This document shows, piece after piece, positions 4,537-10,575 of a stretch of DNA of 64,000 bases. The position numbers and the translations under genes were made by a program. Under the pieces are notes generated by a model that was not told the DNA's origin, did not search any database, and was given only the letters and a program-made list of their open reading frames with translations. Numbering within the stretch: position 1 is the stretch's first letter; every line of letters starts with the position of its first letter. This stretch comes from Halobacillus halophilus DSM 2266 (lineage in GTDB: Bacteria; Bacillota; Bacilli; Bacillales; Halobacillaceae), in the NCBI RefSeq assembly GCF_000284515.1, contig NC_017668.1, positions 2,046,001 to 2,110,000 of the forward strand, read 5' to 3'.

Positions 4537-4728
4537 AAAAGACATGAGCTAAAACGAAAATATCCACAGACTTATAGCATTGTCGAGTCGGAAGACAGCT
4601 GTATTGTATTTGGAATGCCTAAAGCTATTTTTAATGCTGGATTGGCTGATGAAGTTATGCATTTATCAGGAATTGGCAGCAGTATCATAAAAGCTCTTAG
4701 ACCAAAGAGGGGGAAGAAGAATGGATAA
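4533..4728 (+). pseudogene. cheB: Relic of chemotaxis methylesterase cheB (only the C-terminus remains)
   Basis: In B. subtilis cheB sits exactly here, between ylxH/flhG and cheA. Only about 190 bases separate the two genes in this window. An ATG at 4533 overlaps the flhG stop but reads only four codons (MKKT) to a stop. Shifted by one base, an open frame runs from 4537 to the stop at 4726-4728; its latter part resembles the end of CheB: IVESEDSCIVFGMPKAIFNAG, then LADEVMHLSGI. CheB catalytic domains end with the same ESEE(T/S)CVV(F/Y)GMPKA pattern. About 1 kb, comprising the receiver domain and most of the methylesterase domain, is missing. No functional product is expected. The match is by eye and needs an alignment. 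Confidence 0.8.
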
Positions 4729-7224: not shown

Positions 7225-7884
7225 ATGACATTCAGTGATCGTTTTTCAGCTGTTCAAATAGATGTACTTAAGGAAGTGGGCAACATCGGAGCTGGACACG
7301 CGGCTACCTCTCTTTCCCATTTACTTGAACGAAAGATCGAAATGTTTGTCCCCTCGGTTCGACTGGCAGACTTTGACGAAGTGGTTGAACTTTCAGGGGG
7401 TTCAGAAGAGGTTGTTGTCAGTGTGTATTTAAAAATAGAAGGCAATGCACCAGGGGGGATGTTTTTCATTTTGCCGCCAGCTCAAGCAGAACGTTTTGTA
7501 AGAATCATGACTGGAGATGCGTCTTTTACTATTCATAATTCCAATTCTATGGAAATTGGTGTATCAGCTCTCAAAGAATTAGGGAATATTCTGTCTGGCT
7601 CTTACCTTACAGCCCTCTCAGATTTTACACAATTGACGCTTTACAACTCTGTTCCTTCACTAAATATGGATATGGCAGGAGCCATCTTAAGTTTCGGTTT
7701 ACTGGAACTATCCCTAGTCAGTGATCAGGGTATTGTAATCGAGACTTGCCTGACAGACTCATCTGATGAGACTAAAGGATCTGTTGAGGGGCACTTCTTC
7801 TTATTTCCAGACCCTGATTCATATGATACGTTGTTTAAAGCCCTGGGAGTATCAGCTTATGACGAAGATGATCCAAATGGTTAA
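7225..7884 (+). CDS. cheC: CheY-P phosphatase CheC
   Basis: CheC dephosphorylates CheY-P and binds the receptor deamidase CheD. The 219-residue product carries two copies of the family's active-site helix motif: KEVGNIGAGHAATSL near residue 16 and KELGNILSGSYLTAL near residue 120. Both retain the conserved Glu and Asn. The start at ATG 7225 is preceded only by a weak TTGAAG ribosome site; an upstream TTG at 7210 overlaps cheW but has no spacing for its ribosome site. The next gene, cheD, overlaps by 26 bases, fitting the known CheC-CheD complex. Confidence 0.94.
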   Translation: MTFSDRFSAVQIDVLKEVGNIGAGHAATSLSHLLERKIEMFVPSVRLADFDEVVELSGGSEEVVVSVYLKIEGNAPGGMFFILPPAQAERFVRIMTGDASFTIHNSNSMEIGVSALKELGNILSGSYLTALSDFTQLTLYNSVPSLNMDMAGAILSFGLLELSLVSDQGIVIETCLTDSSDETKGSVEGHFFLFPDPDSYDTLFKALGVSAYDEDDPNG

Positions 7885-8356
7885 AGTGGGAATAGCTGAT
7901 CTAAAAGTAACAAAACGATCAGAAAAACTTCGCACCTCAGGGCTCGGTTCATGCGTAGGTATAGTACTCTATGATGAATTCCATAAGGCTGCAGGCATGG
8001 CTCATATTATGCTTCCTGACTCTTCATTAGCCAGGAAGGGAGATATTAATCGATTTAAATATGCAGATACAGCTATAGAAGATCTTCTTATTAAATTAAG
8101 TCGATCAGGGGCTGACAGCTTCCAATTAAAAGCAAAAATTGCAGGAGGAGCCCAAATGTTTCATTTTACACCGGCGAGTGAAATGATGAGGATAGGTCCT
8201 AGAAATGTTGAGGCTGTAAAGAAAAAGCTTGCTAGTTTGCATATCCCTATTGAAGCTCAGGATGTAGGAGGGCAAAGTGGCAGGACTATTGAGTTTAATC
8301 CACTTACTTCAAATCTTCATATAAAAACAGTAAATAAGGAAGAAATGATTATTTGA
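7859..8356 (+). CDS. cheD: Chemoreceptor glutamine deamidase CheD
   Basis: CheD deamidates glutamines in chemoreceptors, making methylatable glutamates, and it stimulates CheC. The 165-residue protein shows the catalytic Cys32 in GLGSCVGIVLYDE and His49 in GMAHIMLP, the pair used by the family. The start is ATG 7859, nine bases after GGGAG within cheC; the reading frame itself is open further upstream. Since cheB has been lost from this operon, CheC/CheD and CheV-type adaptation would have to carry more of the adaptation load; that is inference. Confidence 0.95.
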   Translation: MTKMIQMVKVGIADLKVTKRSEKLRTSGLGSCVGIVLYDEFHKAAGMAHIMLPDSSLARKGDINRFKYADTAIEDLLIKLSRSGADSFQLKAKIAGGAQMFHFTPASEMMRIGPRNVEAVKKKLASLHIPIEAQDVGGQSGRTIEFNPLTSNLHIKTVNKEEMII

Positions 8357-8575
8357 TAAACGGCTCTATTAACTGGAACTTGTACGCTGCTAAATTTCAT
8401 ACTCTTTACCCTTTGTCTAATTTATGGGAAACCTCTGTCATCCGAGGTGCCACAAGTTTTTTCTATTTCTTTACCGGCTCTTAGAATATAGAAGACTGAC
8501 TGGATATGTAGCAGCTCTTTCTCAAAACTCTGACAGGCTTCATTTAGTAAAGAGCTTGATCAAAGGGGATTTTGG
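8353..8575 (+). pseudogene. Probable frameshifted small membrane protein gene between cheD and sigD
   Basis: This 294-base gap between cheD and sigD is long for the operon and holds two joined open segments. The first, from a TTG at 8353, runs to a stop at 8482-8484 and includes LWETSVIRGATSFF. The second, in another frame, continues from the T-rich stretch at about 8457-8471 with LFLYRLLEYRRLTGYVAALS and a further amphipathic tail to a stop near 8573. Read together across a one-base shift in the T-rich run, they give a protein of about 75 residues with one hydrophobic segment and a basic/amphipathic tail. I do not recognise the family. It could be an inactive gene or a sequencing error. Confidence 0.4.
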
Positions 8576-8650: not shown

Positions 8651-9427
8651 ATGGCAAACTGTTCATCTCCTCAAGAAGAAAGACTATGGGAACTATGGAC
8701 AACCAATAAAGATGGGGAAGCTGCTAATCAATTAGTTCAGCTTTATGATTACTTAGTAAGCTACCACGTGCAGAGGATATCTGCTCACTTACCCAAAAGC
8801 GTGAGTAAGGACGATGTCAGAAGCTTAGGAATGCTTGGATTATATGATGCATTGAAGAAGTTCGACACGACAAGAGATTTAAAATTTGACACTTATGCTT
8901 CTTTCAGAATCCGCGGCTCTATTATGGACGGTTTAAGAAAAGAAGACTGGCTCCCACGCTCGGTCCGGGATCGTTCGAAAAAGATTGAGCAGATGACTGA
9001 AAAACTGGAGCAGCGTCTTCAGCGGCCGGTTACTTCGGCGGAAATCGGAAAAGAATTAAATATGACAGCGGCAGAAGTGGAAGAAACGGTAAAAGATTCA
9101 TTATATGCTAATGTTCTTTCAATGGAAGAAAGGCCGAAAGACGGTGGGGAGGAGCATAAAGAAGGAATTGGTTACTCGATCCCTGATGAACAAACCATGA
9201 CGCCTTCTGCATCAATGATTCAAGGTGAGAACTTTCAGGAGCTCGCGACTCAAATTCAAAAGCTTAATGAGAAGGAACAGTTGGTGATCAGTTTATTTTA
9301 CACTGAGGAGCTTACACTAACGGAAATTGGCGAAGTGCTTAACTTAACTACTTCAAGAATCTCTCAAATACACGCAAAGGCCATATTTAAGTTGAAAGCC
9401 GCACTAAGCGATATGATGAACTCTTAA
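8651..9427 (+). CDS. sigD: Flagellar/motility sigma factor SigD (sigma-28)
   Basis: SigD directs RNA polymerase to late flagellar, chemotaxis and autolysin genes. The 258-residue product shows sigma regions 2 (LGLYDALKKFDTTRDLKFDTYASFRIRG split over about 55-85, then DGLRKEDWLPRSVRD), 3 and 4 (LTLTEIGEVLNLTTSRISQIHAKA, helix-turn-helix). The start is ATG 8651, six bases after GAGG at 8641-8644; the frame extends to 8621 without a better site. Length matches B. subtilis SigD (254). It is intact, unlike its two neighbours on either side. Confidence 0.95.
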   Translation: MANCSSPQEERLWELWTTNKDGEAANQLVQLYDYLVSYHVQRISAHLPKSVSKDDVRSLGMLGLYDALKKFDTTRDLKFDTYASFRIRGSIMDGLRKEDWLPRSVRDRSKKIEQMTEKLEQRLQRPVTSAEIGKELNMTAAEVEETVKDSLYANVLSMEERPKDGGEEHKEGIGYSIPDEQTMTPSASMIQGENFQELATQIQKLNEKEQLVISLFYTEELTLTEIGEVLNLTTSRISQIHAKAIFKLKAALSDMMNS

Positions 9428-9443
9428 ATACAAGGGGGAGAGT

Positions 9444-9877
9444 GTGGTGGAAAAACGGAATAAAATAAAGATACCTGGTTCTCAGGATAAGACGAAAGCT
9501 TACATATTATTAATGGCAGTGTACCAGCAGGCTTCTGTTTAAAATCGCGAGGCGCAACATTATGAACAAGTAGAAAAAGATAAACAGAGACGAATGGTCC
9601 TCTAAGGAAAGAATCGCTTTTCTCGCCAGCGAAAATCATTTATGGAGACGGAAGAAGATATTGAAGATTTTACCGACCAGCTTAAACGACTAGAGTGTAA
9701 GATTAGAGACGTAAAAGACGCCAAGGGGCAGGCAGAAGGTAAACTGTTTGATAACGTACAGCCAGGGCTTGGTCAATACGAATCCAGGGTAAAAGTCTCT
9801 ACAACCCGTTAGAAGCTGTAATACATAAAGGGGAAATAGTCCTTCGTCCATTAGAAGACTCCCAACTCCAGGAATAA
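9444..9877 (+). pseudogene. Decayed FapA (DUF342) family gene, only both ends left
   Basis: Many Bacillaceae carry a FapA/DUF342 gene at this place, and its two ends appear to be still readable. A GTG start at 9444/9447 after AAGGGGGAG gives EKRNKIKIPGSQDKTKAYILL, like the N-terminal 'I..D.M.AYL.L' of the family, and stops near 9540. After several stops, a coiled-coil stretch (ETEEDIEDFTDQLKRLECKI, from 9641) appears. Shifted again, IQGKSLYNPLEAVIHKGEIV then LRPLEDSQLQE runs to the stop at 9875-9877, matching the FapA C-terminus (G.....PL......GEIVL.PL). An intact gene would be well over 1 kb. I infer a large internal deletion and at least two frameshifts. Confidence 0.65.
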
Positions 9878-9935
9878 CCAAAAAACAAACGACAAGGTTT
9901 TACGGACCGATCGTGTACAGCAGGTGAAAATCAAG

Positions 9936-10415
9936 ATGTCCACATTCTTATTAGTCATCAGTTTTATTATTGACGGGGTGATAATACTTACCCTTTTAAC
10001 GATCTCCACCAGAGTGGAAAAAAACGAAGAGCTTGAAATGCGCCAGGAGGAAGTAGCTAGAGAAATTGAAGATATGTTTACTTCTTATTTAATGGAAATT
10101 AAAGAAGAGAACAAACGAATGAGCAGTTGGCTTCAGCCCGAAAAGCATTCGATAAATGATCAAAAAACAGAGGGTGGAAAGGCAATTGTCGATGAGTCTA
10201 TATCCTCTAAGCATTATAAGGTAAAATCTTCAGAAGAGCACACTAATTATTCACCACCCCTGTCTAACGAGGGGAAGGACTTTTTTGAACGCAGCGACAA
10301 CTACCGAATTTTAGAGTTAAGAAGAGTAGGATATTCTGTAGATGAGATCGCGAAGAAATTAGACAGAGGTAAAACAGAAATTGAACTATTTATTAAATTT
10401 GAGCAAAAACATTAA
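9936..10415 (+). CDS. swrB: SwrB-like (YlxL) membrane protein, flagellar assembly/swarming
   Basis: SwrB (YlxL) is a single-pass membrane protein that promotes flagellar type III secretion activation in B. subtilis. The 159-residue product has an N-terminal membrane helix (about residues 1-25), a charged coiled-coil-like stretch, a variable hydrophilic linker, and a C-terminal conserved helix pair ILELRRVGYSVDEIAKKLDRG, a helix-turn-helix-like motif shared by YlxL relatives. Position between sigD and rpsB matches B. subtilis. Start: ATG 9936 ten bases after AGGTG; a GTG at 9924 is possible. The assignment rests on context, topology and the C-terminal motif. Confidence 0.72.
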   Translation: MSTFLLVISFIIDGVIILTLLTISTRVEKNEELEMRQEEVAREIEDMFTSYLMEIKEENKRMSSWLQPEKHSINDQKTEGGKAIVDESISSKHYKVKSSEEHTNYSPPLSNEGKDFFERSDNYRILELRRVGYSVDEIAKKLDRGKTEIELFIKFEQKH

Positions 10416-10424
10416 GTGAAAAAC

Positions 10425-10453
10425 TTGATAGAGCTACGGTGGTATGGTATATT
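10425..10453 (+). promoter_or_regulatory. Sigma-A promoter for rpsB
   Basis: TTGATA (10425-10430), a 17-base spacer and TATATT (10448-10453), with an extended -10 TG at 10445-10446. The elements start 9 bases after the swrB stop. It would give a leader of roughly 115 bases before rpsB and frees ribosomal protein expression from the motility operon. Confidence 0.75.
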
Positions 10454-10502
10454 TACTGTCGGTGTCAATACACACGTCTTTGGATTCTTTTATAGGTTGC
10501 TC

Positions 10503-10520
10503 TTACAAAAGAGTTTGTAA
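10503..10520 (+). other. Hairpin in the rpsB leader
   Basis: TTACAAA, a four-base loop AGAG, and TTTGTAA form a perfect 7-bp stem 55 bases before rpsB. No T-run follows, so it is not a terminator. It may belong to an autoregulatory S2 leader structure; this is inference. Confidence 0.4.
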
Positions 10521-10575
10521 AAGAAAATGATAAAGGCGGAGGATACTAAAAATAAACCAAACAGGAGGAACAATT

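Follow-up and report, generated by a model that had tools for sequence, protein, structure and literature searches.

The window analysed here is a stretch of 64,000 nucleotides of the Halobacillus halophilus DSM 2266 genome (NC_017668.1, positions 2,046,001 to 2,110,000). In this window, the 496 bases between the stop codon of sigD and swrB (9428-9923) contain five collinear pieces of FapA (DUF342), which lie in shifted frames over 9435-9859 (Table 1). Nine intact FapA proteins of this bacterial family supplied the consensus on which the pieces were placed. A previous sequence-only reading had described the interval as a FapA remnant with both ends recognisable and the middle gone. The GTG at 9444 does follow a ribosome site, AAGGGGGAG, and opens a frame that closes 32 codons on; frame-free chaining mapped consensus residues 4-27 to 9435-9506, which identifies the N-terminus as that of FapA. 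The coiled-coil fragment also proved to be FapA, and the C-terminal end was found in a shifted frame as proposed. Both ends are thus kept, but the middle is not entirely lost, as the piece IINGSVPAGFCLKSRG (9506-9553) and the SSKERI piece persist. Because these two pieces persist, at least two separate deletions are required; internal deletion and frameshifting of a gene between sigD and swrB were correctly proposed, a single deletion was not.

Table 1. Genes and relics around sigD in the window
Feature	Position	Strand	Remarks
cheB relic	4549-4698	+	CheB residues 301-350 of 352
Relic of FlgV-like two-membrane-helix gene before sigD	8353-8472	+	Residues 1-45 in pieces
sigD (sigma-28/FliA family), intact	8651-9427	+	
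fapA relic, N-terminal piece with start and ribosome site	9444-9542	+	FapA residues ~7-27; TAA at 9540-9542
fapA relic, middle piece, other frame	9509-9553	+	Consensus residues 209-223
fapA relic, SSKERI piece	9598-9615	+	Consensus residues 375-380; assigned solely by collinearity
fapA relic, coiled-coil to C-terminal piece	9624-9794	+	Consensus residues 384-440
fapA relic, C-terminal end, another frame	9800-9859	+	Consensus residues 443-462
Possible last codons of orfX (FYGPIVYSR-stop)	9898-9927	+	Overlaps the swrB ribosome site
swrB (TM + helix-turn-helix; DUF6115), intact	9924-10415	+	True start may be ATG 9936

The collinear chaining score of the relic, calculated irrespective of frame, was 145.9. 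None of 1000 dinucleotide shuffles reached this value, nor did any of 252 tiles of equal length taken from both strands of the window; the maximum was 59.1 in either set. When an intact congener FapA was compared with the intervals by tblastn, the N-terminal, middle, coiled-coil, and C-terminal pieces were recovered; the lowest E value was 2e-9, calculated for a very small database. Pfam barely detected the relic (best piece 15.2 bits versus a cut-off of 31). A functional FapA such as that of genome G006 is encoded by an ORF of ~455-475 codons with PF20250 and PF03961, and 9435-9859 contains no such ORF. No second fapA exists in the genome of the window, in which nothing exceeded the PF03961 cut-off, and a plasmid search using the sigD-swrB interval matched nothing.

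Intact fapA of ~460 codons was found between sigD and swrB in five of 21 congeners. With PF03961, FapA was detected in 10 of 44 family genomes, among them G056 with a gene interrupted by a frameshift, and in 62 of 150 genomes sampled from the order. The FapA assignment would have been undermined if neither end were related to DUF342 or if relatives and outgroups were devoid of fapA, and both turned out to be otherwise. At the 41 high-scoring loci examined for synteny (L007-L017 and L080-L109), fapA was accompanied by sigD in all 41, by swrB in 40, and by rpsB in 40. Another 19 lower-scoring loci (L018-L036) represent other DUF342-like matches without this neighbourhood, one of which showed a weak partial sigma-factor match. 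The synteny of the high-scoring loci marks the position of fapA between sigD and swrB as the older state, of which the window holds the leftovers. The relic is thus what is expected of a pseudogene: its collinear homologous pieces exceed chance, and relatives hold an intact orthologue at the same site. Pairwise dN/dS of the intact fapA genes was uninformative owing to saturation at synonymous sites; three of four pairs gave no value and the fourth gave a dS of 4.4.

The fapA relic is accompanied by two others, a cheB stub and a broken ORF before sigD, so that the three relics proposed earlier for this operon were borne out. The cheB relic matches the C-terminus of the CheB methylesterase, with 52% identity over residues 301-350 (PF01339 positions 136-174). 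The window genome has lost cheB and kept cheR; in the regions of G019 and G001 (L059, L060), G019 has most of cheB (from residue 54) and a cheR with stops, and G001 shows no cheB match and a truncated cheR. Receptor-methylation genes therefore erode in the clade of the window, G019, and G001.

The broken ORF before sigD corresponds to a protein of 96-120 residues encoded at this position in many relatives (51% identity over residues 1-45, E 4e-8). Its score of 69.6 was reached by none of 100 shuffles, the maximum of which was 25.1. The protein of the relatives has two hydrophobic stretches with an arginine in the second, followed by a polar tail and, at the C-terminus, a peptide resembling EETSKMIRSLLNED. 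According to the consulted part of the published description, flgV adjoins genes for sigma-28, FapA, YjfB, and a TM + HTH protein (PMC11607428). Judged by eye against that description, the intact relatives show the two helices, the arginine, the polar tail, the hydrophobic/basic C-terminal peptide, and the sigma-28 neighbour, and the two-helix protein appears to fit FlgV; it had no Pfam or NCBIfam match over the cut-off and is likened to FlgV by description only. The FlgV-like gene is also decaying in G012 and G016, genomes without fapA: an in-frame stop was observed in G012 (L065, turned, 7666-7845) and a frame break in G016 (L063, 7640-7809).

A fourth gene, orfX, is missing from the window. 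It comprises ~97 codons and lies between fapA and swrB at 32 of the 41 fapA loci, as in G004 (L067, turned to the sigD strand, 10257-10550). Its product of ~97 aa (MSWKxVEMQVALPRVQDAGKLQEQ...HPxLGKRxDYSG) is conserved beside fapA across the order and had no Pfam or NCBIfam match. A long fapA match was absent at six of the 26 named loci having orfX. The score of the possible orfX end in the window was reached by 34 of 5000 shuffles and ranked 13th among 3571 stops of the window, and the G019 counterpart scored below zero. These values are suggestive of the window keeping at most the last ten codons of orfX.

To follow fapA across the family, we compared 43 regions (the window and 42 fetched regions). 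The sigD-swrB gap was measurable in 41 of them; G021, whose region stops at a contig end, and G045, which had no swrB match, were left out. Nine gaps contained intact fapA and four were too short for any remnant. The other 28 were scored against 100 shuffles each: seven gaps (window, G019, G001, G007, G016, G002, and G056) exceeded all shuffles, three were borderline (G012, 5/100; G008, 2/100; G050, 1/100), and 18 gave no fapA signal. The score of the G007 gap was modest (55.7, against 46.8 for its reverse strand), and its FapA N-terminus was found by tblastn (E 1e-8). A 12-residue FapA-like piece, PLYEVHGNLDLH (E 0.002), was observed on the minus strand of this gap (positions 8914-8949 of L061, turned to the sigD strand), possibly the result of a small inversion. 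G056 (L126, turned, 8811-10162) has a nearly whole fapA with a single frameshift near residue 198; either the gene became a pseudogene recently or the frameshift is a sequencing error. The states seen among the relatives were thus intact gene, one frameshift, fragments, and clean gap.

In a tree of polC and proS from 42 family members and three outgroups, the window, G019, and G001 formed a group (support 84 and 100); G021, whose region stops at a contig end, and G024, in which sigD had no match, are absent from this tree. The neighbours of the group on the tree are G006, in which fapA is present, and G017, where most of the operon is gone. Among named genomes, Halobacillus alkaliphilus FP5 and H. 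halophilus AcN7-4 are the closest. The three remnants were compared by pairwise alignments, since a three-way alignment misplaced the short G019 sequence. In G019, residues 15-27 are fused to 403-459, and G001 holds other pieces. The left edges of the first deletion agree within a few bases in the window and G019, which suggests that this deletion is shared. G001 continues past that edge, and no lesion common to all three was seen in the pairwise alignments. On the 42-genome tree, a single ancestral gain implies 12 independent losses of fapA, which drop to 11 when nodes below 80 are collapsed and to 10 when those below 90 or 95 are; with free regain allowed, seven changes are counted. We estimate that fapA was lost independently about 10-12 times in the family, with the rest of the flagellar operon mostly kept.

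The operon neighbours of the relic are intact: between the window and G019, dN/dS of the operon neighbours ranged over 0.03-0.29 (flhA 0.034, sigD 0.042, cheA 0.136, and swrB 0.29). All 23 upstream flagellar reference ORFs of G006 were matched in the window genome and no match contained an internal stop; two ORFs matched incompletely at the start, the matches beginning at residues 17 and 81. An open sigD was also observed at L078 (G017) and L115 (G045), although most of the flhA-cheD region has been lost there. Chloride-dependent motility and flagellin synthesis are described for H. halophilus in the consulted part of PMC2412884. Between the window and G019 the remnant diverges by 0.14-0.19, which is above dN of the operon genes and below most of their dS values. 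In the pieces common to both, 14 nonsynonymous changes in 132.5 sites compare with eight synonymous changes in 38.5 sites (Fisher p = 0.10); with fewer nonsynonymous changes per site, the counts do not prove strict neutrality over the entire branch, part of which may predate the inactivation.

We consider it very unlikely that the relic has been retained as a new functional element, either as a small protein or as a leader for the translation of swrB. An ATG-started ORF of 56 codons (9642-9812) is open within the relic, and G019 has a counterpart that is likewise open in frame, but in G001 the stretch has frameshifts and stops and the ORF is not conserved in frame, and ATG 9642 has no visible ribosome site. 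The last 43 nt before swrB diverge by only 0.07 between the window and G019, as opposed to 0.14-0.19 elsewhere; such low divergence is, however, already expected because the swrB ribosome site is located there. Moreover, other congeners have shortened or fully removed the stretch, and it had no Rfam match over the cut-off. The single Rfam match below threshold, to a snoRNA family of eukaryotes (E 0.9), was dismissed as a sign of an RNA element. Shuffled sequences contained more promoter-like sites and a similar number of terminator-like ones.

An error of assembly or sequencing that split an intact fapA is still less probable. The full-length fapA of G056 with its single frameshift could be such an error, but in the window ~960 bp are absent, the own assembly consists of three contigs estimated to be 100% complete, and the independent assemblies of G019 and G001 carry different deletions at the same place. 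Assembly error in the window is already excluded by these two sister assemblies. A chance likeness of intergenic sequence to FapA is negligible in view of the shuffles, the tiles, and the intact orthologues at the same place.

We conclude, with a probability of roughly 0.96 on the sequence evidence, that the sigD-swrB interval is a fapA pseudogene that presumably yields no FapA product and is the residue of a probably dispensable gene decayed through at least two deletions and frameshifts. This is supported by homology, collinearity, synteny of the intact gene, the lack of another copy, and the intactness of the checked operon genes. The ancestral order was probably cheB-cheA-cheW-cheC-cheD-flgV-sigD-fapA-orfX-swrB-rpsB. 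In this lineage, fapA was inactivated and shrank from ~1.4 kb to 0.43 kb through at least two internal deletions (residues 28-208 and 224-374) and several frameshifts. FapA would then no longer be made from the relic, which may still be co-transcribed with its neighbours and would serve as a spacer, with swrB using its own ribosome site; most likely, it does nothing beyond separating sigD from swrB. FapA would be unneeded for building this flagellar system, its loss would be neutral or nearly so, and ordinary deletion-biased mutation may drive the decay. The repeated loss of fapA is best read as dispensability, with a selective cause being possible. In Vibrio, FapA is linked to the flagellated pole and to glucose signalling (PMC6877527; reportedly Park et al. 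2016 and 2019). In the literature searched, we found no paper on FapA action in Gram-positive bacteria, nor, by title and start of abstract, on fapA decay in this group.

More broadly, the relic is an ordinary pseudogene within a well-replicated erosion of accessory genes around sigD. Within one genus and at one fixed site, fapA is seen intact, broken, and erased, while other flagellar genes mostly stay. The series amounts to a set of natural knock-outs of two flagellar genes about which little is understood, with which one can ask why FapA and FlgV are dispensable. It suggests that neither fapA nor the FlgV-like gene is required for these bacteria to maintain a flagellar operon under selection. 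For annotators, it means that relic pieces should not be called small genes. We tentatively propose, as a reading that is rather less probable than its negation, that FapA, FlgV, and the orfX protein form an accessory layer around the flagellar sigma factor which is being dismantled repeatedly and stepwise in the Halobacillus group, converging on a bare cheD-sigD-swrB, the gene order of Bacillus subtilis, and that fapA perhaps goes before flgV. In a table of 42 genomes, seven had both genes, two fapA only, 15 flgV only, and 18 neither, with kinship uncontrolled and with G012 and G016 scored as having flgV despite their stop and frame break. If true, such an order would point to a shared change of flagellar control in halophilic bacilli and not to random decay.

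Compared with FapA/DUF342 proteins, which consist of the PF20250 N-terminal domain and the PF03961 beta-solenoid, the relic keeps recognisable pieces of both domains and of the C-terminal part in order, and shares the position between sigD and swrB with the intact copies. In contrast to them, it has no open gene, lacks the two deleted segments, and is spread over more than one frame. The FlgV module, as far as described in the consulted part of PMC11607428, resembles the intact relatives in having a two-helix protein before sigD, fapA after it, and then the TM + HTH swrB. The differences from that module are that Pfam does not recognise the small gene between fapA and swrB in the relatives as YjfB, and that the window has only relics of fapA and of the FlgV-like gene. 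The same part of that source states that flgV is absent in Bacillus subtilis (PMC11607428). B. subtilis and the window share the end state with neither flgV nor fapA around sigD; in the window, the relics are still readable.
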